In this document: piece by piece, positions 11,840-29,731 of the stretch
How positions within the stretch are numbered: the first letter of the stretch is position 1
How the letters are laid out: the number at the start of each line of letters is the position of its first letter
Notes under the pieces: generated by a model
Told to the model about the DNA's origin: nothing
The model's database searches: none
Seen by the model: the letters and a program-made list of their open reading frames with translations, nothing else
Made by a program: the position numbers and the translations under genes
Virus record (IMG/VR): IMGVR_UViG_3300048061_000997
Coordinates: 1-40,911 of that record
Reading direction: 5' to 3' (one strand)
Length of the DNA stretch: 40,911 nucleotides
Source: a virus

Positions 11840-11840
11840 A

Positions 11841-14800
11841 ATGAAAACTACAATACTAGGAGTAGAATTTACGATCACAGATCTGGATGCTAATTATGAG
11901 GTTGTCGGAACTTCCGATAACTATTCTTTTACTCATAAGCTAGGAAAGGGTAGGGAGCTTGTCGATATTGAAGATGGTGATAATAGGGCTGGTTTTGAAA
12001 AAACATACGGCACAAACATTGATCTTTTGGGAAATTATGGATTATTTGATGTTAGGATTTTTGCAGTAAGTGATATTGGCATCAGATCGGAATTTATACA
12101 GTCAAATATACAGATAGACGCGCCAGAGTTTAATGGAACGTTTATGTTTTCAAATATTCAAGTTGTTGAAAAGGGTAAAACTTTAGATGGAGAGATATTA
12201 AAAACTCCCACGGAGTTAGATAATGAATTGATTGCATCTTCTGATTTTAATGGAAGATCAATATCTCTAAAGTGGAGTATTATACCTCCTCCTGGTCATG
12301 CAAAAGAGGGTGAACCTATGTCGGATGGTTTGCTTGCTGATGGTTTTTTTGATAAATTTGAAATAGTGATTAAAAATGGAATTGACCAAATAGATATTTC
12401 TAGGACAATATTAAATTCATCAGAATCAATGCAGCAAAAATTATCTTCTGCAGATGTTTATGGCGCATTAAAAGAGTATAGGAGTTTTTCAATAGATATA
12501 GATACGGGATCTTTTAATGATTTTGATTTAGATAGAAATGTATCTTTTCATATTACATGTTGCGATAAAAAAGGTGGTAAATCTGTGGGCGTAATTAATG
12601 TAGAAAATAAAAAACCTGTATTGTCAAATTTTCTAAAAAGCAATAAGGGACTTCAAACTGCATTTAGTTGGGACTGCAAGGATGCTGACTTTACTAATGT
12701 TATCGTAAACTATGTAGCATTAGCTGGGGGTAATGATTTAAAATATAATTATGATATAATTGAATCTGTTAAGTATTTAAGAAAAATACAAGACGCTCCA
12801 TCTTATGTTTCCGTAAATAATAAACTATATCAAGTTGATGAAATAGTTAAGGATTTCGGTGTCGTATATAAATGCAAGCAACAACATAATGTAAGTTCCT
12901 CAACTTTTGCTCCTAATGTAGATGGTAATGATTTTTGGGAAGTAATAGGCGTAGAATATCCGCATTCACACCAAACCAATGTTAGTAATGGCAATGCTTT
13001 TAACCTTGTTCAGTTGTTTGGTTATAATTATTATTATTCTTTTCAGCCAATGGATGAATATGGAGCTGGAGATGTTTATAATTTAACTGCAAATGGCATT
13101 CAAGCAAAATCAGAAGCAGCCGTTCTTGAGGGATTTGGGTATGATCTTTATGTTGCAAATCCACAGTTTACTGAAAGAAAGGACGATTTAATATTTCAAT
13201 GGGATATTGTTGATCATCAATTTAATAAAGTCGATCTGAATCAATTTAAAGACGCATCTGAGCAACACGGAGTGCCTCTAGTTTTAGGTATTAGGGGGCG
13301 TCTTTTTGATGTAGATACAAATCAAGCTGTTGCTGAAATAAACCAGTCAAAAAACAAAGATATATCTTTAGGCACTCAAGGAGGCGGTGAAGTTGTTGTT
13401 GGTAATTTTCCTGACTATGAAATTTACGATAGATATGAATATACTAGAGAGATCAACAATGATATATATGGAATAGGAGGGTTTCCAGAATCAAGCCCAT
13501 TTTCTCCAGAGCAAATATACAGTCCAGATACAAATTATAATTATGCAACAATTGGCGTTGCTTTATTTAAAAGTAATATTCAAAGCTCAGTAGGAAATTC
13601 AAGCGTTTATATTAGGCCGGGTTATACGGAGTGGGATAGCTCTGCTTCTATTTTCTTGGGGACAAATCAAAATTACGTACCGATTGTTTCATATGCAGGA
13701 AAATTGTATAAAGTCATTAGGGATTTTGGCCCAGAATCTCAAGATGTAAAAGAGTTTTTTAATGAGAACACTTCTTATTTAGCAAATGATATTGTTGTCG
13801 CTCCCGCAGAGATGATTGAAATATTCGATGCATCGTCTTCTTATCAAGCTTCTGACCTTGTTCTGTTTGATGGAAAAGCTTATGTTGCAAAGCAATCTCA
13901 ATCTGTTGGGAATGCTGTTAGCCCTGGTTTGGATTCAGATTTTTGGACAGAAAGATCTATTCGTTCGGCGATAACCTTTGCTTTATTTAAGGCGACGCGG
14001 GATGTTCCTTCTCCTATATCTTTTTCACCATTTGGGGATTTGGACAATTGGGAAATGCTGCTTCCAGATAATGCAACGGATTATTTTGAACTTTATGTGG
14101 ATTCATATAATGGACGTTTTATTATTAATAATAAGCCTTTTAGGGCTGATGTGACAGAATGGGATGCGGACGGAAATTATTCCATGTCTTCATTCGTTGT
14201 TCATAAAAATGATATTTGGTATGGCCGCAATGAAAGTGGTCCTGCATTTAGTATAGGGGCTGTTGAGCCTGGCACGAATGATGATTATTGGAAAAATGAG
14301 CTTTCTGAGGGGGCTGTTCAGTCGGATTTATTTTCAGATCACTCAGCTGGGGATCTCGTATATTACAACGGATATGTTCACAAATGTTTAGCAGATAATC
14401 CGACCGGAGCTCCACTGGTTCCGATTACTTCTTTTAGAACAGAATCGGAAAATAATTACGATGACTGTCAATGGAAGCCTTTTTGGGAATTAGATGATTC
14501 TTATGATTCCATAGTTTTCGGTCACGTGGGCATACCCGAAAGCGGAAAAAGAAATATAGGTTTAGAGGTGGGCATAGTTGGAATAAACGGTAATGTTATA
14601 TCTTCTCAGAAAATTATCGGCACCAACCCGCCTCCCGATATATTGCGCCAAGGATTTACCGCTAGCAGTACAACTAAAGCTTCTAGGGTAAGATTTAATT
14701 TCAATTACAAGGAAGGGTTTGCAGAAAAAACAACAAAAGTAAACTTGTATAGATCAAGTACGCCTGAATTTGATATTACCGGATCAAATAAATTTGCGGC

Positions 14801-17800
14801 TAGTAGTGCAGAAGAATTTCTTGATGCTCCTACAAATTCAATACCCAATCCTGATTATAATGCAAGCTTTGTAAAAACAACTATTGGAGAAGGTGAGCAT
14901 GCGGACTTTGGAGATAATATAACAGAAATATTTGATGACCCACCTTTGTTTGTGGATTCAGACGGAATAGAGCATCCAACTGGATATTATTATAAAATAT
15001 TGCCTTTCGATGATTTTGGTTCTGGGAATCTTTATGGAGTTAAGGATAATATGCATGACTTGGAAAAGGTTATTGTTTATCCTAAAAGTTATCACAGTCC
15101 TGATCCGCACGATCCTATAGGAGAAATTCCAAAGGCAACTCAACCAGGAGTTCCTGCAGGAGATACAACAACTGTAATTCTAGGAGAATCTATTCCTGGG
15201 CCAGTAGCTAATTTTACTGGTGTTACGGCGTTTGAAAATTATTTCTTGAATTGGGATTTACCTAATTCTGAAATTTCGAATGATACAAACAAACTTGTTA
15301 CCGTTCAACCTAATGATATTGATCATTTTGAGGTTTGGGAATCTAATGAAAGTCATTTGAAGGTTGATCAAGGAAACGGTATTGTTGAGATAACTAAAGA
15401 TCAAAATTTACGCGGTTACAGAAGAATACTTGGTGATTTACCCAGTTTTGGAGATGTTCCTGCAGAAGAACTTGATATTGGATATGATATTACAAATGCC
15501 ACGGAGATTATGGAAATTGCTGGAGGCGGATTTTCTTTTGAGGCAATACATCAAGGCGCAACAAATGAAAGAAGATATTTTTGGATTCGAGCTGTAGACG
15601 CAGCAGGAAATAAAAGTCCGTTTACTGGAGCAGCTAATCTTGCTACTGATACAGTAGAAGGTTTAGAATTAACTTTAGGGCAAGCTAAGACTACAGATAT
15701 TGCTGACTTTGAGCAAAATATTAGTCAATCTTTTCCTAATACTATATCTTTAATACCTCAAAATCCTTTTAGTTATGATGCATCTACAAACACAACAAGT
15801 TGGATAAATCACATTTTATATTATGATGGTGTTGGTTATATAGTTGAGGCCGGAACTACAGTTGATCAAAAGTATATTTATTGGAGTTCTTCTAGGGATG
15901 GAGTTAAATATGGGGACGTAAATGATTCTAATAATCTTGAATACTCAAGAAATCAAGCTTTAAAGACTGCCTTAGGGCTAGAAGAACCTGGAGGGGGAGC
16001 TCAAACAAATTCAGATAATTTAAGGAATGTTCAAAAAGCTGGCGTATACAATTCTTCAGATTATCATCCTGCAGGAGCTGGAGATAGTACCGAAGTAAAT
16101 TCTTCAGACCCTAATGCTCCTTATAATAATAATGAAAAACCTAATCTCTTAGAGCCCGAAGGAGATTTTATTATTGCAAGAATAGCTGGAGGCACTGTTA
16201 CTACAATGTGGCACTCTTTTGCTAATGCAACAATTGGAACTGCTCATATAGAAGAAGCTGCAATTACTAGCGCAAAAGTTCATACTTTAACCGCTGACAA
16301 GATTAGAAGTGCAGAAATAAAAGGTCAAGATATTCAGGTTGGCGGAACAGGTCAAATTAGAAGTTTTGATTTTCCTGGGCTGGTTAATCCAATAGCAAGT
16401 CAGTCTAAAGGATTTGCTATTAGTGGTGACGGTTCATTCATTTTTGCCGCAGACGATGGACGCTTGCATTTTGATGATGGCGAGCTTGTATTAGAAGGAA
16501 AACTAAGACAAATTGACGGTAAAGAATATACATTTATAGATTTAGATGCTTCGCCTGATTCTTTCTTTTATAATGAATTATCTGATGGAACATTTACTCC
16601 TGATGATAATACTGATGTATGTAGTATAAGAGCAAGTTTTCAAAATAGTTTTATTCAAGAGGATCAAGTTAGATTTAGAGTCAGTAATCCTAATAATGGA
16701 TATGAATTTATTAAGTATAGCGACGCAGGCTCTAATGGTGAATATAATATCAGTGGATTTAAATATGATCCAGGTAATGACTTTGTAAATGGCGAGCCCA
16801 AGGTTGCTACTGCGGAATTTAATGTAACTGGATTTAATCAAATGATTAATACTGTTGATCCGCAGCTTACAACAATTATTGTTTCTGCGTCAGGATTAAA
16901 TACCTCAACCGAAAGATCAATTCCAATTAATTTTGTAGCCGATGGAGCGGCTGCTGTATACGCGGAATTAAAAGCTCAACAACAAGTATATTCTTATGAT
17001 TATGATGGTAAGTTTAACGATACAAACTTAAATCTTAATTTAGAAGCTACAGCTCATAATACACATGGTAATATTGACTTTCTTTTTGAAACAGGAGTGA
17101 ACCTTGAGGCGTCTTCATTAAAAGAAATACATAAAGAAACAAAGGATACTAATACAACAAATACCGCTAGCTTCGAACTCGTTAATTTTGCAGATAATGC
17201 TTTACAATATTACAACAACACCCCTTTTGTTGCAAAGCTAACAATATCCGATAAGGATGAAAACAATAATTCAAGGGAGCTTGCTTCAGACTTTGTTAGT
17301 ATCTTTGGCACATTGCCAGGTAAAGATTCGTATACTGTTTTTCTAACAAATGAAAATCATACATATCCAGCAAATGAGAATGGGCTTGTTCATCCTGATG
17401 ATCTTGAAGTAGGTAAAACTCAAGTTAGGTTTTTTAGGGGAACTGAAGAATATAGATATGATGAAGCTGGTTCTGCAGATAAAAGTTTTAGTCTTGTTAG
17501 TGTCACTAGCAGCCATCAAAATGTTGTTACTCATTCTGAAGATCCACAAGGGGTTGGTGTTGATAGAAAACTTTTTGTTAAAATGGCCGCCTATCCTGAC
17601 GATAAAAATGAGGGAACTTTTACAATAAAAGTAAAAGACAATCAATACAGCGATGTTACTTTTGAAAAAATATACACCTACTCAAAATCAATAGAAGCTG
17701 CCAAGGGAAGAACTGTTGAGTTGTCTGCCGGTGCACAGGCTATTAAGTATGATACTGCGGGTGATAATCCAACACAAAATCAAACAGTTGAAATAACCGC

Positions 17801-20693
17801 ATTTCCGACTAATTTCATTGCGGCAGCGCAATATGAATTTTTCATAGGAAATACTAAAATTCAGAACAAAGCTAACGATGCCACTGTCGTAATTAACATT
17901 CCTAATACTCATGATGGAACTGCGACAACAAATTCTGCAACTTATAGTTTGCCTGTTACGATAGAATGTAAAGCATATGACACGACAAAAAATGATACTG
18001 GAGATGTAATCGACACTGATCCAAGGGCTACAGACCAAATTACAATATTCGGTCTAAAGGAAGGCTCTAATGCTATCACTGTAATTCAGTCTCAGCAGTT
18101 TGTTAATGTTCCTGTAAAAAATGATAGCTCTGGTGGAGTAACTACTGTAGATGTTTCTAATACAAAAAATATATTAACTGTTTTTGATGGAACGAATGCA
18201 TTGAATGCTAATGTTGGACCTGTAGGAACGTCAACAGATATAGGTTTTTATGTTGAAACAGCTCACCCCTTTACTAATAAATTAACAACTTTAGTTGACT
18301 CAACTAAGCCTTTAGAGTTTTCATCGGAAGTCAATGAGTGGAATATAACAGAGGATTCCGCCGAAATAACTTATACTATCACTATAATTGATAATGATCC
18401 TGTAAGTGCGCAAACAAAAATAGTAACTGCAAAACAAAATTTAGTTAAAACTTTTGATGGAACAATAGCAAGAAAAGTAGATTTAACTGCTGATCAACAA
18501 TCGGTAACTTATGATACCGCAGGATCAAGTATTCTATCTCCTTCTACTAATAATGGAAGAATAAAATTAACTGCTACAGATAAAAATACTGGTAGTACGG
18601 TAAAGTTTAAATTTGCTGAAGAGGGTTCATTTTCTGGACAATTAAAATTAGCGGACGGAACAGCATACGACTCTTCTGAATGGAGTGATGGAAATGAAGT
18701 CTACTATCATCCGCCAAGCTCAAGGTCCTCTTTTAATTCGGATACAATTAAAGTTGAGATAAGTGAGAATGAAAATAATGTGCTCGCTTCAGATGTGTTG
18801 ACTATATATGCTATTCAAGACGGCTCTGATGTTATCACGGCAATATTGAGTAACGAAGCTCATTCTTTAACCAAAAATCTTCAAGGAATTACTTCTACGG
18901 GAAGCGGAACAGATATTAAAGTTTTCCAAGGAACAAAAGAATTAACATTTGTTACAGAAAACGGAACCCCTTCGAACGAGGAGACTTTTACAGTAACGGC
19001 TTCAACTATAACTAGTAATGGCGGAGTTACTAATGGAGATATTGCCGAGAGTGCAGGTACGAACGAGGTGCATTGTGTTGTCTCTGATCATGACTTTAGC
19101 TCTTTTACTGGTCAATCTGCAACGATTACATATACAATAACATTTAAGAACGACGTTGGAGAAACAGGTACAATAACAAAACAACAAACGTTTTCTATAT
19201 CTGCACAGGGCATACAAGGTAATAGAGGCGTAGGTATAACGTTTAGAGGAGTTTATGATGAAACCGAAGAAGAGTATATTGGCGCGGTTGATGGAGGAAA
19301 TAGAGGCGATGTGATTGAATATGATGGCTCTTATTATTTGTGCATACAAGATAATGGGACTAAGGCAGACTTGTCAGTAAAAAACCCTACTGATACTGAC
19401 TACTGGAAACCGTTTGGCTCTCAGTTTTCAAGCGTAGCAACAGATATATTGTTGGCTAAAGACGCTGCAATAACTCATAGTTTAGTTATGGGAACAGCTG
19501 CTTCTATAAATAGCGGAGCACATAATCCAAAAGTTGGCACAAGTACAAGCAATGGTTCTGGAGGAATAATAAGAAGTGCAAATAAAACGGGATTTGGGGA
19601 TAGTAATGCGGGTTTTTTCCTTGGTGATACTGACGCTGTTCGGTTTGAGATAGGTGATTCTGATTCTTTTATTAAATTTAATTCTATAACAAACAGAATA
19701 GAAATTCAAGGAGCGTTAACATTTAATGATATTACTGACGGAAGTATAAATCCAAACGACCCCACTAATTCTAAAAATGCAACTTTTATAGGAGGTGGTT
19801 ATAATAATTCGATTAATGGATTTGCGGGTGGAACTCAGAATGATAATGGGGTGGGTTCCGCTATTGTTGCTGGCGGAGACAATGAAATTGTAGGCAGATT
19901 TTCTTTTATAGGCGCCGGGTTTGATAATGTATTAAAAGACAATTTTTCAGCAATAGTGGCTGGGTTTGGTAATGAAATGCCGTTGTTATCTGAAGATAAT
20001 GAAGGATCAAATTTTATTGGGGCGGGACAGTTTAATAAGATTAATGGAGGCACAGATCAATCTGTTACCGCGGGATCGTTTAATCAAATAGAATATAATC
20101 CCGATCCAATAGATATTCCTGGTTATAATGATAATCCTCAGGAGGTAGTTTTGAGCACTGGCAGAGGCATATTGTCTAGGGTGTTTTTTGGAGATGGTAG
20201 ATATGATGTTGTATATAATGCTGGATTGGGTTGGTATACCTCTACTGGGCCTGTTTGGGGTAATGCAGTTTATAGAACGGCAAATCTACCAGCTGTTGGC
20301 GCAGAATTAGTGCGTGGAGATGATCCTTTGGCGGAAATTAATTATGAAACTAGTGTTTGGTTTTATTCACTTAACTTTCTTGATACAGCCTCGTCAAGGT
20401 GGTTATTTATAAGATTTCAAGATTACTATGTTTCTTATGGAAAAACTTCTACTTTTTGGTTTTATACTGGTAATAGTGATTATGGGTGGTTGTGGATTAA
20501 TCCAAATGAATTAATCGGTGATGACGGATCGTATGTGTATTCAGATGTAAAACAAAATTGGATATTTATATTTAATAGTTCACATGCTGATGCTGGTAGA
20601 TTTTATGATTATGCGATTCAAGATCATTTCGATCAAAATATTTTATTTTCTAGTTCAACAGGCGGCAGCACTGGCGCACCAAATCTTCCTTAA
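11841..20693 (+). CDS. Giant J-continuation / tail fibre protein (FN3-like, CBM-like, Ig-like and beta-roll repeats)
   Basis: 2950 aa. ATG 11841 lies one base after the I-J stop; the frame is open upstream to 11751, but that part overlaps I-J and reads as nonsense. The N-terminus looks like the FN3-type domain that normally continues gpJ. At about 320-890 several CBM5/12-like modules occur (WEV, FWTER, DDYWKN, FWEL endings), and another at about 2480-2528. Around 1467-1510 lies the gpJ central signature (AAITSAKVHTLTADKI, then GTGQIRS). About 1825-2450 holds Ig-like modules repeating VFLTNENHTYP / AILSNEAHSL type strands. About 2648-2760 holds a beta-roll of GGGxNN / GAGxxN repeats like YadA heads. 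A Trp/Gly-rich module follows (about 2775-2930). Role: long receptor-binding fibre at the tail tip. No reverse transcriptase is seen near it. Confidence 0.85.
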   Translation: MKTTILGVEFTITDLDANYEVVGTSDNYSFTHKLGKGRELVDIEDGDNRAGFEKTYGTNIDLLGNYGLFDVRIFAVSDIGIRSEFIQSNIQIDAPEFNGTFMFSNIQVVEKGKTLDGEILKTPTELDNELIASSDFNGRSISLKWSIIPPPGHAKEGEPMSDGLLADGFFDKFEIVIKNGIDQIDISRTILNSSESMQQKLSSADVYGALKEYRSFSIDIDTGSFNDFDLDRNVSFHITCCDKKGGKSVGVINVENKKPVLSNFLKSNKGLQTAFSWDCKDADFTNVIVNYVALAGGNDLKYNYDIIESVKYLRKIQDAPSYVSVNNKLYQVDEIVKDFGVVYKCKQQHNVSSSTFAPNVDGNDFWEVIGVEYPHSHQTNVSNGNAFNLVQLFGYNYYYSFQPMDEYGAGDVYNLTANGIQAKSEAAVLEGFGYDLYVANPQFTERKDDLIFQWDIVDHQFNKVDLNQFKDASEQHGVPLVLGIRGRLFDVDTNQAVAEINQSKNKDISLGTQGGGEVVVGNFPDYEIYDRYEYTREINNDIYGIGGFPESSPFSPEQIYSPDTNYNYATIGVALFKSNIQSSVGNSSVYIRPGYTEWDSSASIFLGTNQNYVPIVSYAGKLYKVIRDFGPESQDVKEFFNENTSYLANDIVVAPAEMIEIFDASSSYQASDLVLFDGKAYVAKQSQSVGNAVSPGLDSDFWTERSIRSAITFALFKATRDVPSPISFSPFGDLDNWEMLLPDNATDYFELYVDSYNGRFIINNKPFRADVTEWDADGNYSMSSFVVHKNDIWYGRNESGPAFSIGAVEPGTNDDYWKNELSEGAVQSDLFSDHSAGDLVYYNGYVHKCLADNPTGAPLVPITSFRTESENNYDDCQWKPFWELDDSYDSIVFGHVGIPESGKRNIGLEVGIVGINGNVISSQKIIGTNPPPDILRQGFTASSTTKASRVRFNFNYKEGFAEKTTKVNLYRSSTPEFDITGSNKFAASSAEEFLDAPTNSIPNPDYNASFVKTTIGEGEHADFGDNITEIFDDPPLFVDSDGIEHPTGYYYKILPFDDFGSGNLYGVKDNMHDLEKVIVYPKSYHSPDPHDPIGEIPKATQPGVPAGDTTTVILGESIPGPVANFTGVTAFENYFLNWDLPNSEISNDTNKLVTVQPNDIDHFEVWESNESHLKVDQGNGIVEITKDQNLRGYRRILGDLPSFGDVPAEELDIGYDITNATEIMEIAGGGFSFEAIHQGATNERRYFWIRAVDAAGNKSPFTGAANLATDTVEGLELTLGQAKTTDIADFEQNISQSFPNTISLIPQNPFSYDASTNTTSWINHILYYDGVGYIVEAGTTVDQKYIYWSSSRDGVKYGDVNDSNNLEYSRNQALKTALGLEEPGGGAQTNSDNLRNVQKAGVYNSSDYHPAGAGDSTEVNSSDPNAPYNNNEKPNLLEPEGDFIIARIAGGTVTTMWHSFANATIGTAHIEEAAITSAKVHTLTADKIRSAEIKGQDIQVGGTGQIRSFDFPGLVNPIASQSKGFAISGDGSFIFAADDGRLHFDDGELVLEGKLRQIDGKEYTFIDLDASPDSFFYNELSDGTFTPDDNTDVCSIRASFQNSFIQEDQVRFRVSNPNNGYEFIKYSDAGSNGEYNISGFKYDPGNDFVNGEPKVATAEFNVTGFNQMINTVDPQLTTIIVSASGLNTSTERSIPINFVADGAAAVYAELKAQQQVYSYDYDGKFNDTNLNLNLEATAHNTHGNIDFLFETGVNLEASSLKEIHKETKDTNTTNTASFELVNFADNALQYYNNTPFVAKLTISDKDENNNSRELASDFVSIFGTLPGKDSYTVFLTNENHTYPANENGLVHPDDLEVGKTQVRFFRGTEEYRYDEAGSADKSFSLVSVTSSHQNVVTHSEDPQGVGVDRKLFVKMAAYPDDKNEGTFTIKVKDNQYSDVTFEKIYTYSKSIEAAKGRTVELSAGAQAIKYDTAGDNPTQNQTVEITAFPTNFIAAAQYEFFIGNTKIQNKANDATVVINIPNTHDGTATTNSATYSLPVTIECKAYDTTKNDTGDVIDTDPRATDQITIFGLKEGSNAITVIQSQQFVNVPVKNDSSGGVTTVDVSNTKNILTVFDGTNALNANVGPVGTSTDIGFYVETAHPFTNKLTTLVDSTKPLEFSSEVNEWNITEDSAEITYTITIIDNDPVSAQTKIVTAKQNLVKTFDGTIARKVDLTADQQSVTYDTAGSSILSPSTNNGRIKLTATDKNTGSTVKFKFAEEGSFSGQLKLADGTAYDSSEWSDGNEVYYHPPSSRSSFNSDTIKVEISENENNVLASDVLTIYAIQDGSDVITAILSNEAHSLTKNLQGITSTGSGTDIKVFQGTKELTFVTENGTPSNEETFTVTASTITSNGGVTNGDIAESAGTNEVHCVVSDHDFSSFTGQSATITYTITFKNDVGETGTITKQQTFSISAQGIQGNRGVGITFRGVYDETEEEYIGAVDGGNRGDVIEYDGSYYLCIQDNGTKADLSVKNPTDTDYWKPFGSQFSSVATDILLAKDAAITHSLVMGTAASINSGAHNPKVGTSTSNGSGGIIRSANKTGFGDSNAGFFLGDTDAVRFEIGDSDSFIKFNSITNRIEIQGALTFNDITDGSINPNDPTNSKNATFIGGGYNNSINGFAGGTQNDNGVGSAIVAGGDNEIVGRFSFIGAGFDNVLKDNFSAIVAGFGNEMPLLSEDNEGSNFIGAGQFNKINGGTDQSVTAGSFNQIEYNPDPIDIPGYNDNPQEVVLSTGRGILSRVFFGDGRYDVVYNAGLGWYTSTGPVWGNAVYRTANLPAVGAELVRGDDPLAEINYETSVWFYSLNFLDTASSRWLFIRFQDYYVSYGKTSTFWFYTGNSDYGWLWINPNELIGDDGSYVYSDVKQNWIFIFNSSHADAGRFYDYAIQDHFDQNILFSSSTGGSTGAPNLP

Positions 20694-20695
20694 TT

Positions 20696-21547
20696 ATGAG
20701 TTCATTTTCTACAAATTTACCAAATTTTACTGTACCAAATACATTAACCGAACTTGAGTTTCCTCCAGAAGTAACTCAAGGTGTAAAAGGTTATTCAGCT
20801 AGCAACTCTATTCTCGGCGGGAGAAATAATAAAATTGAAGACTCTAGGAATTGCTCTGTGCTTAATGGTATTTCCAACTTAATAAGCGGAAGATATAATA
20901 CACATGTAATCGGTAATTTTGTGGTCCCAGAAGAAGATAATTCTTTGGTTGTTGGGTGTTTAAATGGAATGAAAGTTCATGGAGATATACAATCTACTTA
21001 TAATATAATTTCAAGTGGCCGTATGATTTGTAATTCAAATTTAGAGATTGGTCCAGGTCACGTAAACTTTGCATATATCGACTTAAAGAATAATGTAAGT
21101 GAAGATGCTGATATACGTATAGCTCAAGGAGTTGGTAGTAGTCAGTCGGAATACGATTTATATATAGGACCAGCACCTAATTCTCCTCAAGCTTGTAATC
21201 TTCATGTTGAGGGAGATGTTGTTTCTTATTACGCATCTGACAAGAGATTAAAAGATGATATAACTTTAATAGACGAACCTTTATCTAAAGTTATGTCTTT
21301 AGATGCAATAGAATTCAATTGGAACGATAACCAGTCAACATATACTGGACACGATGTTGGTCTGATTGCTCAGCAAGTTGAAGAAGTCGCTCCAGAAATA
21401 GTGGAAACTAGAAAAGACGGATACAAGGCAATTAAATACGAAAAAGTAAACGCTCTTCTTGTTGGCGCGATTCAAGAACAGCAAAAGAGAATAGAGTTTT
21501 TAGAAAAAAGACTAGAAAGCCTCGAAAGAAGATCTAGTCGTTCATAA
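20696..21547 (+). CDS. Fibre end protein with peptidase S74 intramolecular chaperone domain
   Basis: 283 aa, starting two bases after the preceding fibre gene. Residues about 36-75 continue the beta-roll style of that fibre (ILGGRNNKI, VLNGISNLI). From residue 180 the C-terminal S74 domain is complete: S181-D-K-R-L-K186 matches the Ser/Lys dyad spacing used for self-cleavage in endosialidase-type chaperones, followed by DVGLIAQQVEEVAPEIV, a YEKVNALLVGAI helix and a C-terminal coiled coil (about 258-281). Known role of the family: trimerise and fold the fibre, then cut itself off before the Ser. Here the chaperone sits in its own gene rather than at the end of the main fibre. Its last 14 bases overlap the convergent gene on the other strand. 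Confidence 0.88.
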   Translation: MSSFSTNLPNFTVPNTLTELEFPPEVTQGVKGYSASNSILGGRNNKIEDSRNCSVLNGISNLISGRYNTHVIGNFVVPEEDNSLVVGCLNGMKVHGDIQSTYNIISSGRMICNSNLEIGPGHVNFAYIDLKNNVSEDADIRIAQGVGSSQSEYDLYIGPAPNSPQACNLHVEGDVVSYYASDKRLKDDITLIDEPLSKVMSLDAIEFNWNDNQSTYTGHDVGLIAQQVEEVAPEIVETRKDGYKAIKYEKVNALLVGAIQEQQKRIEFLEKRLESLERRSSRS

Positions 21548-22370
21548 CCTTCATTAATACTCTTGATTGGGTAGCGGGAATATCCGAGAAGTCATTCCAT
21601 TCTTTTACGGAATCATTTTTGTATTTTCCATCTTTCCACCAATCTCTAAGATAAACTTTAAACTCTTCAAAGTTTGCGCAATTTAATTTTTCTTTTGCTA
21701 AATTTTCTATCATAGTTGATGGAGTGAGTGTTGGAGAAATATTATTTTGAACCGCAGAAGTTTTATTGTTAGACTTGTCGATTTCATCATCACCAACAAT
21801 ATGAACATTAAGGAAATTTCTTACACAACGAACAAAAGCTCTGTTGCAAGCAATAGTTTCTAAAAACTTTGTTGCAAAACTACTTGTATTTTCTAATGTG
21901 GCATTAGCCATATCTTGGAAAATTACAGGCTCTCCATTTGTTTCGTAGTTGGGAAGAAAGACAATTGAGCAGCTTACTGCTACATGATCCATTTCACATT
22001 TAACAATGTCGTACCTTACGTCTTTGAATCCTCTTAGTCTAGCAAGTTCTTTGATGCCGCTTAGTTTAATTAAAAGCTGATAATCTTGCAAGCCTTTAAC
22101 TGATCTAGGCATATCTTTTTTTCTCATAGAGAACCAGCCTTTATTGGGAAATAAGTGTTCATCTTCAATCATGGATCTCCAGTTCACTGATCCATCTTCG
22201 TTAAAATGATAATCTACATTATCAAGTAATCCAAATGAATTTCTTTTAAATTTGCCAGGCCCATCCTTATAGTTTTTTGCGTATTCAATTGGCTTGGTTG
22301 TTATTTCTGTGGATTCTAATACCGAGTCGAAAGTTACTGAGTTGTCTGCTGTTGTTTTTGTTTTTGCCAT
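21534..22370 (-). CDS. Possible single-strand annealing (Rad52/ERF/RecT-like) recombination protein
   Basis: 278 aa; not firmly recognised. Residues about 105-195 have the layout of phage annealing proteins: ikLSGIKELARLRGF, then strands with a conserved G near a polar loop, then a helix IACNRAFVRCVRNFL resembling the AxTRAxxRAxR helix of ERF/RecT/Rad52-like families, followed by VGDDEI. The N-terminal 30 residues and 196-225 are polar and probably disordered; the C-terminal 60 residues form a small helical domain (NFEEFKVYLRDWW). It is the last gene of the minus unit that begins with a probable ssDNA-binding protein, which fits recombination, although two glycosyltransferase genes lie between. 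Start is ATG two bases after the upstream stop. Could equally be an unrelated phage protein. Confidence 0.45.
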   Translation of the reverse strand: MAKTKTTADNSVTFDSVLESTEITTKPIEYAKNYKDGPGKFKRNSFGLLDNVDYHFNEDGSVNWRSMIEDEHLFPNKGWFSMRKKDMPRSVKGLQDYQLLIKLSGIKELARLRGFKDVRYDIVKCEMDHVAVSCSIVFLPNYETNGEPVIFQDMANATLENTSSFATKFLETIACNRAFVRCVRNFLNVHIVGDDEIDKSNNKTSAVQNNISPTLTPSTMIENLAKEKLNCANFEEFKVYLRDWWKDGKYKNDSVKEWNDFSDIPATQSRVLMKVMND

Positions 22371-22372
22371 AA

Positions 22373-23530
22373 TTATTCTTGGTTATAAATTCTAAGCATA
22401 TCAAGGTCTTCCCAAAACTCTTCGCAATCAATTACTTGATCGTGATCTCCTGGCTGATTGAATTTCCATGCAGCTTTGCTGTTGAAAACTTGACCTCCTG
22501 ATACTATCTTTGTTGAACATTTATAACGAGAATTATCGCATATTTTCTCTGGATTGTCAAGATCTTTTTTAGTTTTTGTTTCAATTAGTCTAACATTCCA
22601 ATCAAAAAACTTTAATCTTATATTATTAATGTTTTGCTTATCTTTACTTAATAAATTAAATTTTATACCTAACTTTTGTAATGATTCAAAGTATTTAGTT
22701 TCATCATCTTCTGATACATAATAATTTATATAATGAATATTATCTTTAATAACTTGTAGGTATTTTAGTTCCATCGGTTTATCAAGAAAGATGTTGCACT
22801 TTCTGCTGTATGCCCATTTAGCTATATTCTGTTCGTCAAAGCATTCGTGACCCCAAATATTGACTGGCTGACCTTTGGCGAAAGACTTGGGCATAATATG
22901 ATTGGGCACAACAGATATATTTTCTTTTTGATATTGACTGCCTATGTGAATTGTTTCTATTTTATCAGCATCATGCTTTATGTTTAATAAATCTAGAACA
23001 CCGCAAGCAATTTCTTCAGGATCTATAAAGTTTACTGTTTTTGGAGACTCTTTATTAGAGAAAGATGGTTTTTGTCCACCTCTATCTGATTCAAGTAAAA
23101 CGTGGTCTTTTTCATCGCCCCAATATGGACCGCAACATTCTTTATATAAAATACTGTACAAACAAACAATTTTTTTGTTAAAACCAGATGCAACATGTGC
23201 GCTAAATGAGTCGTTGCCTAAATGAAGCATCGCATTTTCAATAAGATATGCTGATTGCCTAATTGAAGTTGAGCCGTTGTAATGAATGCAGTTGCGAAGC
23301 TTAGCGTCTTCTTTAGCTCCAATTTGTATAATACTGATATTATTTTTTTCTAAATAAGGATTTATGATTTCAATTACATCGCTGAAATAATCGTAGTTCT
23401 TAGATTCCATGCCGCTACTTGCATGCAAGGTAATATACTTTTCACATTCAACTGGGAAGAAAAGAGTTTCAATTGAAGGCTTATCAATTTTTACCCCGCA
23501 AGATAAAGCATACTGTTCTATTAAGTGCAT
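22373..23530 (-). CDS. GT9 (heptosyltransferase-type) C-terminal half with unknown C-terminal extension
   Basis: 385 aa. The first residues (MHLIEQYALSCGV) correspond to the linker between the two Rossmann domains of GT9 enzymes, and residues about 30-185 form only the second, nucleotide-sugar-binding domain, with the family motif NDSFSAHVASGFNKKIVCLYS at 106-126 (N/D-S-xxxH-xA-xxx-K-x-V). The first GT9 domain is at the end of the upstream gene. The ATG overlaps the upstream stop by 10 bases and lies in the -1 frame relative to it, so the two halves are made as separate chains by coupled translation, unless a frameshift joins them. Residues about 195-385 are unrecognised; they contain GGQVFNSKAAWKF and a Trp/acidic end. 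Probably acts with its upstream partner on a cytoplasmic sugar-transfer step. Confidence 0.75.
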   Translation of the reverse strand: MHLIEQYALSCGVKIDKPSIETLFFPVECEKYITLHASSGMESKNYDYFSDVIEIINPYLEKNNISIIQIGAKEDAKLRNCIHYNGSTSIRQSAYLIENAMLHLGNDSFSAHVASGFNKKIVCLYSILYKECCGPYWGDEKDHVLLESDRGGQKPSFSNKESPKTVNFIDPEEIACGVLDLLNIKHDADKIETIHIGSQYQKENISVVPNHIMPKSFAKGQPVNIWGHECFDEQNIAKWAYSRKCNIFLDKPMELKYLQVIKDNIHYINYYVSEDDETKYFESLQKLGIKFNLLSKDKQNINNIRLKFFDWNVRLIETKTKKDLDNPEKICDNSRYKCSTKIVSGGQVFNSKAAWKFNQPGDHDQVIDCEEFWEDLDMLRIYNQE

Positions 23531-25425
23531 ATATCAAATTGTATTTTATCTTTTCCGTTGTGCATATAATTTAACATTCTCTGAGTTCCTATAAAAGGCA
23601 AGAATGCAATTTCGAAAAAACCTTTATGGTTAGCCTGCCCTTCCATTGCTGTTAAATTGTCTAAATTTTTATTATAAGGAATAACTTTATGTAAGTATGG
23701 GTTGCCATCAAGTATGTCAAAATATTCTGGTTTTGTTGCAAAATAAATATTATATTCTGGATATAATTCTTTCATGTTTTTTAATAAAGATGTGCAAAGA
23801 TATATATCTCCTATGCTTTGAGGCATGGATATCAAAATTCTTTTTCCTTCATCATCTTTATCAAGAAGTTCTGCGAAATCTACTTTTTTATTTTTATCAT
23901 TTTCTTTTGTGGCAACTTGTTTAAAGTATTTTAGAACATCTTCTCTAGACATGTCATCATTTAGTCTTTTTAACCAATGTTTGTGTCCTTCATCTGAATC
24001 TATAATTTCCATATCAAGTATATTTTTATATATATCTTTGATCCATACGGAGTCACTTTCGATTTCTGGAGGATTATAATCTGGATTCTTTGGGTTAGAT
24101 GCAAAATCAAAATCCCAATCTGGCTCAGGCATGTCATCAATAATTTTTTCTAATTGAGCGCCCACCGCTTCTATGCTATAATTTTTAATAACAAATTCTC
24201 GTGCTTGTTTACCCATTTCAGAACGCTTCTCTTTTTTCATTCTGAAAACTTTTTTGAGCTGACTAGCTATGCTATCTGGGTTTGTGCTGGCTTTGATAAA
24301 TTGAGTTCCAGGCTCTCTGTATTCGTTCCAACTTAACCCGAAGCCAGCTGCTTCATCTGTACAGCAATCTTCTCCACAGCTATAATTTGTTACTAAAGTT
24401 ATTAACTCTGTGAGTTTTGCTTCTTGAATGGGAATCTCTTGTCCGCCACTAGTGAATGGGTGGCAGTATACATCCATATTATTATAAATTTGGTTAAGCT
24501 GAGTTTCGCTAACACCAAGTTTAGTGCTGGTTGTTTTTTGTGATTTTTTAGCTCCGCAAAATGGGCAGTCTTCTTTTTCTGTAGTAAATTTTTTAATTTC
24601 AAAACTCTTGCACTTCTCGCATACATATGTTGTTAAAACTCTATTGGGGTCAATGCCTTTTTCTTTGATCAATCTTGGTATGTCCCAGCCCTCACTCCAA
24701 CTAGTATGTAGTAATAACTTTGCGGAGCATTTTGGATTTTGGTTACAAAAAATTTTGAAACCTTCGAGTAAATTGGGCACGCTTTTTCTTAATTGGTTCC
24801 TGAAAACAAATCCTATTATAAAGTCATCTTGAGTTTTAAAATAAGTCCTCATCCTCAACCTTTCTTCGTCGCTTAACCTTTTAAAATTTTTAGTATCTAA
24901 AGCGCCATGCAAGGTTTTTACGTGTTCGTGCCCTATTTTATTTAAAGATTTTTGTGCAAAAGAAGCCCAGGTATAGTAATGTTTAATCTTATTGGCAGAC
25001 TTTTCTGCTTCTGGTAATATTGGAAGACTATCTAATGTGGTCCATATCATGCAATTTATTTTGTTCCACCACTTTTTGTCTGTATATCCAGAAAAGGCCC
25101 AGATGTCTTCTATTCCGATATATAAATCTGGCTTTTCTCGTTCTATAATTTTATCAATACTATAAGCTCCATAGCTTGCGCTTCTCGCTAAGCTTGGGTC
25201 TTCGTTTAGTTTCTTAAGAAGAGATGGACTATTTGGTAATGAGCCCTCGCATTTCCATGGTAAATTTTGTAAAGATGGGTCTCCCCATCTTATGCCATTA
25301 GAAAACTCTACTAAATCATACTTGCCTGTTTTTTGTAAATATAATAATATATTTTTTGTGTGCTTTCCAAAACCCGTATAAGCCTTGCAGTGATTACTGT
25401 GGATTAATACTTTTTTCTTTTTCAT
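23521..25425 (-). CDS. GT4 glycosyltransferase with zinc ribbon, DUF4214-like module and GT9 N-terminal half
   Basis: 634 aa from ATG 25425, which overlaps the upstream stop (TGATG); a TTG one codon earlier is less likely. Domains: GT4-type GT-B glycosyltransferase at 1-430 (donor-site region near 320-335, PFTSGGQEIPIQEA, E330/E335 area); inside it a zinc ribbon at 269-290 (C269-xx-C272, C287-xx-C290); a DUF4214-like helical module at about 457-505 (VWIKDIYKNIL, HWLKRLNDDMSRE); then the N-terminal Rossmann domain of a GT9 heptosyltransferase from about 528 (KRILISMPQSIGDIYLCTSL) to the end. The GT9 fold is cut exactly at its inter-domain linker and continues in the next gene. Expected role: sequential sugar transfers to a glycan. 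Acceptor and sugar cannot be read. Confidence 0.8.
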   Translation of the reverse strand: MKKKKVLIHSNHCKAYTGFGKHTKNILLYLQKTGKYDLVEFSNGIRWGDPSLQNLPWKCEGSLPNSPSLLKKLNEDPSLARSASYGAYSIDKIIEREKPDLYIGIEDIWAFSGYTDKKWWNKINCMIWTTLDSLPILPEAEKSANKIKHYYTWASFAQKSLNKIGHEHVKTLHGALDTKNFKRLSDEERLRMRTYFKTQDDFIIGFVFRNQLRKSVPNLLEGFKIFCNQNPKCSAKLLLHTSWSEGWDIPRLIKEKGIDPNRVLTTYVCEKCKSFEIKKFTTEKEDCPFCGAKKSQKTTSTKLGVSETQLNQIYNNMDVYCHPFTSGGQEIPIQEAKLTELITLVTNYSCGEDCCTDEAAGFGLSWNEYREPGTQFIKASTNPDSIASQLKKVFRMKKEKRSEMGKQAREFVIKNYSIEAVGAQLEKIIDDMPEPDWDFDFASNPKNPDYNPPEIESDSVWIKDIYKNILDMEIIDSDEGHKHWLKRLNDDMSREDVLKYFKQVATKENDKNKKVDFAELLDKDDEGKRILISMPQSIGDIYLCTSLLKNMKELYPEYNIYFATKPEYFDILDGNPYLHKVIPYNKNLDNLTAMEGQANHKGFFEIAFLPFIGTQRMLNYMHNGKDKIQFDICT

Positions 25426-26090
25426 CAAAAAGGAGCGTCATCAGATATGTGATTTGCTGCCTCTTCTTTTACTGCGTTTGGTTGTGAGCCTTCTTGTGAC
25501 ACGAGATCAAAAACGTTTTGCAGAATTCCAACGCTGCCCGGAAGGTACGACGCTCCCCTGTCTGTAGTTTTTGATTTATAGTCTTGTAATTTTTTATGCT
25601 CTTCAAGTCTTCTGTGGTCGTATAAGTTGCTTAAGTAGTGTTTAAAGAATTCTTTTAGATTTTCAACTTCGCCCGGTTCTATTGGAATCCTGAAGGTTTG
25701 ATTTCCATTTCTCGTAAAAGTAACACCAAACGCTGGGAGTGTTATATACTTCTCTTGATCTCCTGTTTTTATTTTGGTTTTCTTATCCCATGGAGCGAAT
25801 TTGATTGATGTCTTGTTATCTTCGAAAGAGTGAAAAGATGAGTATTCGTTTCGATTATTAAAAGAACTTATAATTGCACCTATTTCAAATTCAGTAAATT
25901 TTAAACTAATCTTTTTATCTGGATCGCTTGCATTATTCGAAAAGCTTCCGCTTCGATTCTTTTCGTCCCAACTGTACTGTTGGATTGCGTTAACGTAAAC
26001 TACGGGCTCTTTGTTTTTATTTTGTCCTATAGAGAAATTAAAAGCGCACCCTGTGTTCTTACTGTTTGGTTTATATAGAGATATTGACAT
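25425..26090 (-). CDS. Probable ssDNA-binding protein with SSB-like acidic C-terminal tip
   Basis: 221 aa, first gene of its unit. The N-terminal about 140 residues are beta-rich with a central basic patch (SIKFAPWDKKTKIK), a pattern that suggests a PC4/Whirly-like ssDNA-binding fold; phage T5 is known to encode a PC4 homologue. The strongest clue is the end: a polar linker (about 190-213) then DDAPF at 217-221, the acidic-aromatic tip through which bacterial SSBs recruit partner proteins. A second protein in this window, the OB-fold SSB at 36911, ends in the same style. A sigma-70-like promoter lies 26 bases upstream. The fold assignment is inference; ssDNA binding is likely but unproven. 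Confidence 0.55.
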   Translation of the reverse strand: MSISLYKPNSKNTGCAFNFSIGQNKNKEPVVYVNAIQQYSWDEKNRSGSFSNNASDPDKKISLKFTEFEIGAIISSFNNRNEYSSFHSFEDNKTSIKFAPWDKKTKIKTGDQEKYITLPAFGVTFTRNGNQTFRIPIEPGEVENLKEFFKHYLSNLYDHRRLEEHKKLQDYKSKTTDRGASYLPGSVGILQNVFDLVSQEGSQPNAVKEEAANHISDDAPF

Positions 26091-26149: not shown

Positions 26150-27076
26150 TTATTGCCCTGACTTTTTGATTAAAAAAGGTAGTTTATTGATTCCTAACGA
26201 ATCATTTTTTTCTGGAGAGGATTTTTCATAAGCTTCCTGGAGGGAATCTTCTTTTGGGGAGTTTTCTACAGGCATGCTTGTTATCTCTTTTAGCGTGGGA
26301 GATTTAACTGATGGATCCAAGGCCCACATTATATCATGTTTCTCCGCCCAACGAACCATCCTTCTTACTGGAACCATTAAATTAAAACCTTCTCCAGCTC
26401 CTCTAACTATCATCCCAACGTACCTTCCGTCTTGAAGATATACTCCGCCTCCTGATGACCCTGGGAAGGCCGTAACTGTTGTTTGGTCGTATTCTATTTT
26501 ATTTCGCATTCTTCCTACTTGAGAAACAATTCCGCTTGTCATACTGTTTGATCCAAATTGACCTAGTAGCGAGCCAACATGGAATAAGGGTGTCCCTATA
26601 GATATGATAGGCTCTTTCTGATTTAAGTAAAATTTGGCGCTAGCTTTTCCGTAATCTTTTGCTCTTACCATTAATAGGGCTAAATCCTCTCCGTTGTCTG
26701 CGTCGCTATATTTAATTACCACCGCCGACATTTTCATTTCACCAACTCTTCTTCCGTCTTCAACCAATTCTTTAACAATCTGGACATCTCCAAATTCTAC
26801 TGTTTTCTTTGGCGTCCCATCTTTAATTTTTGTTCTGATACTTCTGACATTGTCAATTACGTGGCCGCAGGTCCAGACGAAGGTTATCTTCTCTCCCTCA
26901 ATTTCCCTTGTTATTAAAACTCCGGAACCTTCTGATTTGCTGTAGCGAGCCTCAGACTTAATTGTTACTGATATATCTTGAAGAAAGTCCGAAACGCCTT
27001 TCCTGTCTTTTGGTGATATTGATAGTAGGGTTGACGAGATAAAGGTCAATATTATTAGGTTTATAATTATTTTCAT
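26150..27076 (-). CDS. Secreted trypsin-like serine protease (S1 family)
   Basis: 308 aa. An N-terminal signal peptide is visible (lysine at 2, hydrophobic 3-19, LLSIS), so the product should leave the cytoplasm. The chymotrypsin-fold triad is complete: H72 in TCGH, D131 in EDLALL, S208 in GSSGGG (206-211). The fold ends around residue 240; the last 65 residues are polar and probably disordered. No PDZ domain follows, unlike HtrA/Deg proteins. It is the last gene of the glycan run, 12 bases after the WavE-like gene, and no Shine-Dalgarno is present. Function inferred: periplasmic or extracellular cleavage of host proteins, or processing of virion or surface proteins. No target can be named. 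Confidence 0.88.
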   Translation of the reverse strand: MKIIINLIILTFISSTLLSISPKDRKGVSDFLQDISVTIKSEARYSKSEGSGVLITREIEGEKITFVWTCGHVIDNVRSIRTKIKDGTPKKTVEFGDVQIVKELVEDGRRVGEMKMSAVVIKYSDADNGEDLALLMVRAKDYGKASAKFYLNQKEPIISIGTPLFHVGSLLGQFGSNSMTSGIVSQVGRMRNKIEYDQTTVTAFPGSSGGGVYLQDGRYVGMIVRGAGEGFNLMVPVRRMVRWAEKHDIMWALDPSVKSPTLKEITSMPVENSPKEDSLQEAYEKSSPEKNDSLGINKLPFLIKKSGQ

Positions 27077-27958: not shown

Positions 27959-28377
27959 ACCAAATAATCTGAGCAGAGACCAAAGCATGCTTGACCTGAA
28001 TATTTTCGGGCGTCATCCACAACAAGAACGCTTTTATTGCAAACTCTTTTTCCTGGATAAGTCCATACGAAATTTTTTGAGGTTAATGTAAAATCATCAT
28101 TTTGATGCCAGAAGAAGTTAAATAAGCTAAACTCAGACAATATATCTATAGCTTCAAGGTTTTTACAATGAATCCATAACTTATTAAAATGTTTTGTTAG
28201 AAATTTGACATCAACTTGATATTGGGGTTCATCGTGTCCGAGCCAAAGTTTTTTATCTGCCCAGATATCAATTTCTACATCATAACCTTTTGCTATTGCA
28301 TCTAAAATATAGTCTTGCGTATTTTCTTTTTCTGGGCGAGAACCATTTGTATTACCTCTATGAGCTATAAATATCAT
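27955..28377 (-). CDS. Short GDPD/PI-PLC-like phosphodiesterase
   Basis: 140 aa, much shorter than typical glycerophosphodiester phosphodiesterases (about 240-260). The N-terminal catalytic signature is present: AHRGN with H6 and R7, ENT at 18-20, EIDIW with E35 and D37, and LGHDEP with H48. These supply the two catalytic histidines and the acidic metal ligands of the TIM-barrel family, but the last strands of a full barrel appear missing or reduced. Short versions of this type occur beside polysaccharide genes in bacteria. The start overlaps the preceding gene by 20 bases. Likely substrate: a phosphodiester in a glycan or glycerol-phosphate decoration (inference). Confidence 0.72.
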   Translation of the reverse strand: MIFIAHRGNTNGSRPEKENTQDYILDAIAKGYDVEIDIWADKKLWLGHDEPQYQVDVKFLTKHFNKLWIHCKNLEAIDILSEFSLFNFFWHQNDDFTLTSKNFVWTYPGKRVCNKSVLVVDDARKYSGQACFGLCSDYLV

Positions 28378-29731
28378 GCTTTAGAAAAGTATCTAAATCT
28401 TCCGGTGTTCCTAGTCCCCACATTTTTTCTATATGAAATGTTTTTATTTTAGCATGTTTTAAAATAGCTTCGTTATAAACTGGACAAACGTAAAATTCAT
28501 TATTAACTCTAATATTTTTTTCTATCATAGATTCTGCGCACTCGACATAGTCTTTTCCTTTTTTCCAGAAGTAAATTCCTACAGTAGCATTTTCACTAAT
28601 GGGTTTTTTTTCAGCAACCTCGGTAACAAAATTTTGATCATTGGTTTTTGCGTAACTCCATTTTGGGTGCTTGGAATTAAAGGTGAGTATAGATCCATCA
28701 ATATCATCTGTCATACAAGAATACATATATTGGCTACTATCCCAGTCTACATATTGATCTGAATTAGCTAGAACAAGTGGATCATCGTTGTTAATATATT
28801 CTTTAGCAAGAAGTGTGGTGCATGCCGCACCTTCTGTTACTCCGTCTACTTGAACAATTTTACAACCTGGAGATATTAGGTTTAGGGTGTGTTGTAGGGA
28901 ATATTTTTCGTAATGAGATTTTTGAACTATAAAAATGTGTGTTGCGTCAATATTGATGTTTTCTACAACTCTTTGAATCATGGGCTTACCATTAACGTCT
29001 ATTAATGGTTTAGGGAAGGTGTATCCCGCTTGTTCGAATCTGGACCCTGCTCCAGCCATAGGAATTAAAACGTTCATTTTATCTGAGCTCCATTTGGGTT
29101 TTTTGGTGTTTTTATGTGCATTTGAAATTGTTTTTTTAATTTTATTATAAGATAGATCTTCTGGATTTTCTACAGCGCACAATACACCGCCACTTCTTAT
29201 GGCTCCTTTTCGACCTATGTGAGAGTCTTCTATGATAACTGTTTCGTCAGGGCTAACTCCAGCCTTAATCATGCACCTCATGTATATCTCGGCATTTGGT
29301 TTTGGATTGTTTACGTCTTGATTTGAATATAAAAAATCTATATATTCCATGAAGCCTTTTCTGATAAGTTGAAGTTTTGCTGTTTCTCTAATAGAGTTTG
29401 TTGCGCAAGCAATAGTAAATCCTTCTGATTTTAATTGTTTGAATATATTTTGTATTCTTTTGTCAATTGTGAAATCATCTATTATTTTTAACGTAATTTT
29501 TTGTTTAGCCTTCCACGTGTTATCTATTTCATCTCTTGGAAAATCTTTTGTTTCGCATAGCATTTTCAATTTTTTATTGGTTGATAAACCATCGTATGAA
29601 GTTAGGTGATCTTGATAGCTAATCCTGTATTCTTCGCCAACCAAAGATAAAGCTTTATCTAGGGCATCAAAGTGAAGTTTTTTTGAGTCAACTAAAACTC
29701 CGTCTAAATCAAATATAATTAATTTAATCAT
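28358..29731 (-). CDS. HAD phosphatase - sugar nucleotidyltransferase fusion
   Basis: 457 aa with two catalytic domains. Residues 1-200 are a HAD hydrolase of the beta-phosphoglucomutase type: FDLDGVLVDS (D8 nucleophile, D10), ATNS (110-113), K144 in NPKP, EDSHIG (168-173). Residues 219-457 are a nucleotidyltransferase of the RmlA/GlmU type: MNVLIPMAGAGSRF, FPKPL with K241, NSDQ with D325. A hydrophilic linker of about 18 residues joins them. The pair could dephosphorylate or isomerise a sugar phosphate and load it onto a nucleotide, giving a donor for the neighbouring glycosyltransferases. It overlaps its upstream neighbour by 8 bases. Domain calls are secure; the sugar is unknown. Confidence 0.88.
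   Translation of the reverse strand: MIKLIIFDLDGVLVDSKKLHFDALDKALSLVGEEYRISYQDHLTSYDGLSTNKKLKMLCETKDFPRDEIDNTWKAKQKITLKIIDDFTIDKRIQNIFKQLKSEGFTIACATNSIRETAKLQLIRKGFMEYIDFLYSNQDVNNPKPNAEIYMRCMIKAGVSPDETVIIEDSHIGRKGAIRSGGVLCAVENPEDLSYNKIKKTISNAHKNTKKPKWSSDKMNVLIPMAGAGSRFEQAGYTFPKPLIDVNGKPMIQRVVENINIDATHIFIVQKSHYEKYSLQHTLNLISPGCKIVQVDGVTEGAACTTLLAKEYINNDDPLVLANSDQYVDWDSSQYMYSCMTDDIDGSILTFNSKHPKWSYAKTNDQNFVTEVAEKKPISENATVGIYFWKKGKDYVECAESMIEKNIRVNNEFYVCPVYNEAILKHAKIKTFHIEKMWGLGTPEDLDTFLKHDIYSS

Follow-up and report, generated by a model that had tools for sequence, protein, structure and literature searches.

A conserved phage gene pair encoding the two halves of a putative split GT9-family glycosyltransferase

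Introduction

In bacteria, a GT9 enzyme is normally one protein. In the phage DNA studied here, two GT9 domains are instead encoded by two adjacent and overlapping genes, gene N and gene C, which raises the question of whether a single gene has been broken or whether the enzyme is made as two chains. The window, by which we mean the whole stretch of DNA analysed, is the IMG/VR record IMGVR_UViG_3300048061_000997, a linear fragment of 40,911 b (Table 1).

Two overlapping genes carry opposite halves of a GT9 enzyme

We found that the product of gene N (P0001) comprises 634 aa when read from the ATG at 25425, the start that is also used by relatives, with a TTG at 25428 as the alternative start; the ATG and the stop of the upstream gene overlap by 1 nt. 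The reading frame of chain C is offset by -1 from that of chain N. At the junction, chain N ends in ...FDICT directly before its stop codon and chain C begins with MHLIEQYALSCGVKI..., the cut site lying directly N-terminal to the GT9 interdomain helix, which is formed by chain C residues 2-10. A preliminary description of the locus had the 634-residue protein consist of a GT4 with only the first GT9 domain at its end, and its stop overlap the next start in the -1 frame, both of which agree with the ORFs and, for the domains, with the profile and Foldseek matches. It also had the second ORF start at the linker, as it does, and hold only the second GT9 domain, to which an alpha/beta domain of ~190 aa has to be added. 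This domain, the DUF4214-like segment and the CxxC...CxxC insertion of the GT4 were absent from that description.

Table 1. Coordinates and supporting evidence for the gene pair, its domains and key residues in the window, and genes found between the halves in relatives.
Feature	Position or locus	Strand	Description and evidence
Gene N	23521..25428	(-)	GT4, DUF4214-like segment, GT9 N-terminal (acceptor/catalytic-base) domain; ORF, PF00534, phrog_2170
GT4 domain, chain N residues 5-432	24133..25416	(-)	phrog_2170 (E=3e-20); PF00534 above cut-off
CxxC...CxxC zinc-ribbon-like insertion in GT4, residues 270-291	24556..24621	(-)	Cys conservation; weak zinc-ribbon matches
DUF4214-like helical segment, residues 458-504	23917..24057	(-)	PF13946 (E=1.7e-4); AlphaFold2 helices
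GT9 N-terminal Rossmann domain (GT9-N), residues 524-635	23524..23859	(-)	HMM to 3tov; Foldseek
Asp541 (GD motif), chain N	23806..23808	(-)	HepI/WaaC D13 catalytic-base equivalent; invariant, 73/73
Gene N stop / gene C start overlap	23521..23530	(-)	10 nt, ATGCACTTAA
Gene C	22373..23530	(-)	385 aa; GT9 donor-binding domain and extra C-terminal alpha/beta domain; ORF, AlphaFold2 pLDDT 93.5
GT9 C-terminal donor domain and interdomain helix, chain C residues 1-190	22961..23530	(-)	PF01075; 1psw; Foldseek
Lys44, chain C	23399..23401	(-)	Likely HepI K192 equivalent; K or R in 73/73
Asp107, chain C	23210..23212	(-)	HepI D261 equivalent; D in 72/73; aligned to 1psw NDSGLMH
Extra alpha/beta domain, chain C residues 191-385 (~190 aa)	22376..22960	(-)	AlphaFold2 secondary structure
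DUF6165 gene between halves	L023, L026, L072, L075, L083, L100		
HTH-HNH gene between halves	L025		
Anp1-like glycosyltransferase genes between halves	L073, L079		
69-aa ORF between halves	L171		

The GT4 domain of chain N scores 28.2 bits against PF00534 (cut-off 26.4), and the family is matched in 17/17 relatives. In its EX7E motif the second Glu is kept and the first is replaced by Gly (G328), E331 and E336 being invariant, and the Cys residues of the insertion are kept in 16-17/17 relatives. Between the GT4 and the GT9-N domain sits the DUF4214-like segment, helical in the AlphaFold2 model, for which PF13946 remains under the Pfam cut-off on P0001 and is matched at E<0.01 in 15/17 relatives. 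For the GT9-N domain, a Pfam search gives no match; a profile built from relatives matches the N-terminal domain of the 3tov GT9 (E=0.011), and for its AlphaFold2 model (pLDDT 79) 9/10 top Foldseek matches are GT9 chains (prob 1.00), with 3tov, 1psw and WaaC dominating the top matches.

Chain C (P0002) matches PF01075 with 25.3 bits against a cut-off of 22, over profile positions 106-227, and 15/18 of its relatives match the family at E<0.01. Additionally, it has a sequence match to 1psw, heptosyltransferase II (E=2e-5), and the 21 best Foldseek matches of its AlphaFold2 model are GT9 enzymes. Against the heptosyltransferase equivalogs TIGR02193/02195/02201 and the TibC-type TIGR04414, chain C remains below all cut-offs (best 21.3 bits vs 134.6), so that heptose as the sugar is not implied. 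The extra domain matched no Pfam or PHROG family, and we observe that it is faster evolving.

As a control, we used single-chain bacterial GT9 ORFs (L277, L274, L278), in which the GT9-N profile matches within the initial ~100 residues, and the GT9-C profile within the second half of the same ORF; in L277, for instance, the two profiles fall at residues 27-97 (E=1e-7) and 210-332 (E=1.5e-13), respectively. Each phage chain thus corresponds to a different end of an ordinary single-chain GT9, in sequence as well as in predicted fold, and the usual GT9 layout, with both Rossmann domains on one polypeptide, is not found in the pair.

The split recurs across relatives

Seven IMG/VR scans were performed, several with queries lacking the start of chain C in order to keep fused forms detectable. 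A search for related phages with the same split, as proposed in the preliminary description, returned 216 distinct junction sequences, and no fused ORF with both halves was found among all loci from these scans. At 103 of the junctions the genes overlap (-1, -4, -10, -13 and -14), whereas at 82 they are spaced by 0-14 nt, at 9 by 15-100 nt and at 22 by more than that, with the 10-nt overlap of the window occurring in 45/216. Furthermore, in 182/186 loci chain C starts from an ATG of its own at the equivalent residue.

One explanation would be a single gene broken by sequencing or assembly error or by a recent frameshift mutation, which would suit the way in which the halves meet at the domain linker, offset by -1 in frame. 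However, the junction is shared by a contig of 98% identity and by dozens more from other metagenomes, overlaps, gaps and inserted genes occur among the 216 distinct junctions without any fused form, and dN/dS is well below 1 in both halves, rendering this explanation vanishingly improbable. A second explanation is programmed -1 frameshifting, which would yield a GT4-GT9 fusion protein in addition to the short product, and for which the -1 offset of the window, shown also by the most frequent overlap class, would speak. However, the sole window for such a shift, from the last stop in the chain C frame to the chain N stop, is TGATATATGCACTTAA and contains no X XXY YYZ slippery heptamer, and the geometry is variable. 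An overlap of -14, a gap anywhere from +1 to +62 or an inserted gene cannot be bridged in this way, and in many relatives the halves are indeed separated by a gap or a complete gene, leaving no route by which a frameshift could produce one chain. Given also the conserved ATG of chain C, we regard frameshifting as extremely unlikely. Of the two modes of expression proposed earlier, it is coupled translation that would be likely, with 185/216 junctions being within -14..+14 nt, while the -1 frameshift does not hold. Overall, the comparison of these sequences indicates that the split is an old, conserved two-part design, and neither a sequencing error nor a broken gene.

Among the longer gaps examined, we also observe that the junction has repeatedly acquired whole genes (Table 1). 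Directly downstream of the pair, a homologue of the window gene at 21534-22370 is present in nearly all relatives. In bacterial genomes, the split pair was found once, in a Halobacteriovorax MAG (L187, PBIO01000024.1), with the matches being otherwise generic GT9s; the L187 contig may be a phage of this predatory bacterium, or it may be mis-binned. Among the 50,697 phage records of INPHARED there was no chain C homologue, and distant chain C queries against cultured phages yielded nothing but generic heptosyltransferase II, from records that were bacterial or lacked annotation.

Catalytic residues, selection and covariation

In HepI, the proposed base is D13, which lies in the N-terminal domain, K192 and D261 matter for the chemistry, and the donor is bound by the C-terminal domain (PMC5713226). 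The D13 equivalent is in chain N and the K192 and D261 equivalents are in chain C, so that the base and the donor site are on separate chains. Across relatives down to ~33% identity, both halves retain their catalytic residues, in line with the intact motifs that had been reported for the window. Median dN/dS was lowest in GT9N (0.054), the slowest-evolving domain, followed by GT4 (0.064), GT9C (0.10), the DUF4214 region (0.13) and the extra domain (0.14), and both genes are under purifying selection. Together, the recurring junctions and dN/dS far below 1 favour the earlier suggestion of a working split enzyme over decay. It could also be proposed that the pair is catalytically dead and forms a structural or lectin-like complex, given that the GT4 is without the first Glu of EX7E and that no activity is known, but the retention of the catalytic residues in both halves at such divergence makes a dead complex very unlikely.

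Inter-chain covariation was calculated from 172 non-redundant N/C pairs, the controls being 64-65 same-size chain N blocks and 500 entropy-matched column sets. The mean z for GT9N x GT9C was 0.18, and 0.12 without a divergent clade, whereas the maximum for same-size blocks from the rest of chain N was -0.08 and -0.001, respectively; the GT9N x GT9C value also exceeded the 500 entropy-matched column sets. Without the divergent clade, the stronger pairs clustered around the catalytic loop, whose positions 539 and 543 joined with chain C positions 44, 93, 113 and 116, and around the linker helix, with GT9N positions 619-623, at the end of that domain, joining chain C positions 6, 11 and 40. The single pairs 539-C3, 623-C11 and 620-C6, which came from a first run with 102 pairs, were dropped; at 172 pairs the strongest single pairs were driven by the divergent clade, and we thus rely only on the domain-level mean with its matched controls. 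This covariation fits a GT9 cleft shared across the chains and is suggestive, as common descent and the proximity of GT9N to gene C may contribute to it.

Chain C without a detected chain N

Six informative contigs contain chain C with no chain N detected (L256, L302, L303, L369, L441, L445). The chain-C-only contigs, among them records of 136 kb and 83 kb, are not known to be complete, and, as a check on the absence of chain N, the A2 and A5 profiles match in control records. Together with shorter fragments, these contigs form one derived group nested among the paired phages, in which the linker-helix change Y7F is found in 8/10 sequences vs 2/172. In L303 and L445, the genes directly upstream of chain C are, in place of chain N, one for a small membrane protein (DUF1360-like in L303) and a deaminase-like one. 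A weak second GT9 match in a chain-C-only phage (G135:90806) was attributed to chance, as it lies inside an aldo/keto-reductase-like ORF.

This group is most simply read as having lost or relocated chain N at a later stage, but chain C may be able to act without it. Chain C might work alone or with another partner, either as a donor-binding subunit or as a GT-B made of its own two alpha/beta domains, with GT9-N being a separate accessory domain. The derived group, in which the donor residues of chain C are intact, and the second alpha/beta domain of the chain would both agree with this. However, the GT9-N domain retains its catalytic Asp throughout and evolves most slowly, 216 paired junctions stand against the six informative exceptions, and these exceptions nest in the paired tree and show linker-helix changes, as expected after a later loss of the partner. 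We therefore consider an independent chain C to be unlikely.

Genomic neighbourhood and putative function

The pair is located near tail genes, including a lambda-J-like gene (6530-11836) and a tail fibre end (20696-21544). Between these two lies an ORF of 2966 aa (11793-20693, (+)), which probably encodes a giant protein of the tail fibre or tail tip. A glycan cassette adjoins the pair, with genes for a weakly WavE-like protein, a HAD-nucleotidyltransferase fusion, methyltransferase-like proteins, a GT2 and a second GT4. The fusion (28358-29731, (-)) joins a beta-phosphoglucomutase-like HAD to a sugar-1-phosphate nucleotidyltransferase and is a possible source of activated sugar; a protease-like gene (phrog_9683; 26150-27076, (-)) also adjoins the glycosyltransferase genes. 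From this setting we infer that the pair may add sugars to a phage-made glycan, on the virion or on the host surface.

Proposed mechanism and comparison with known systems

Overall, the pair is probably a naturally split GT9-family GT-B enzyme, consisting of a GT4-tethered acceptor half and a donor half whose chains most likely meet in trans. Chain N would contribute the GT9 acceptor domain with the catalytic Asp, tethered via the DUF4214-like segment to a complete-looking GT4, and chain C would contribute the GT9 donor-binding domain and the extra alpha/beta domain. The two genes would be translated in succession, usually by stop-start coupling, and the chains would then come together to form the GT9 cleft, with each half alone presumably being unable to transfer sugar. 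The likely product would be a GT4+GT9 complex that adds two sugars, one after the other, to a glycan whose genes lie in the adjoining cassette. We lean, with less assurance, towards the broader proposal that this is an obligate two-chain GT9 with a GT4-tethered acceptor half, forming a bifunctional heteromeric glycosyltransferase across hundreds of uncultivated aquatic phages, the junction of which tolerates repeated insertions. For annotation, we caution that gene C resembles a truncated GT9 and that gene N hides a half-domain unseen by Pfam.

The phage enzyme resembles WaaC/HepI, WaaF/HepII (2h1h, 1psw) and 3tov in its two shared domains, its catalytic Asp, its donor-site Lys and Asp and its sequence and fold matches, but these enzymes are single-chain whereas the phage enzyme has two chains. 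A joined GT4 and GT9 is also found in a related phage, in the 193.7 kb record G144, from the same phage as the locus L248, in which L496:1408-3000 (-) encodes one chain that contains both a GT4 and an intact TibC-like GT9 (TIGR04414 E=1e-95). This TibC/Aah autotransporter O-heptosyltransferase type has its GT9 joined to a GT4 as in chain N, but it is unsplit, belongs to another GT9 subfamily, has no DUF4214 match and is carried beside the split pair; it follows that the coupling of GT4 and GT9 is not unique, whereas the split is.

Alg13/Alg14 and the bacterial EpsE/EpsF are GT-B enzymes cut between the two Rossmann domains, with the acceptor and donor domains on separate chains (PMC8993221). 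The phage GT-B enzyme is likewise split between its Rossmann domains; however, Alg13/Alg14 and EpsE/EpsF are GT1/GT28-related, whereas the phage pair is GT9, its acceptor half is joined to a GT4 and its donor half carries an extra domain, and the Alg14 and GT28-C domains gave no Pfam match in the pair at E<=1. A literature search, covering few subscription journals, found no published split GT9. To our knowledge, one lineage of split GT-B enzymes has been described (Alg13/14, EpsE/F), and the GT9 pair, conserved over a broad phage group, would constitute a second, independent case and a testable natural system for a GT-B cleft that works across two chains.
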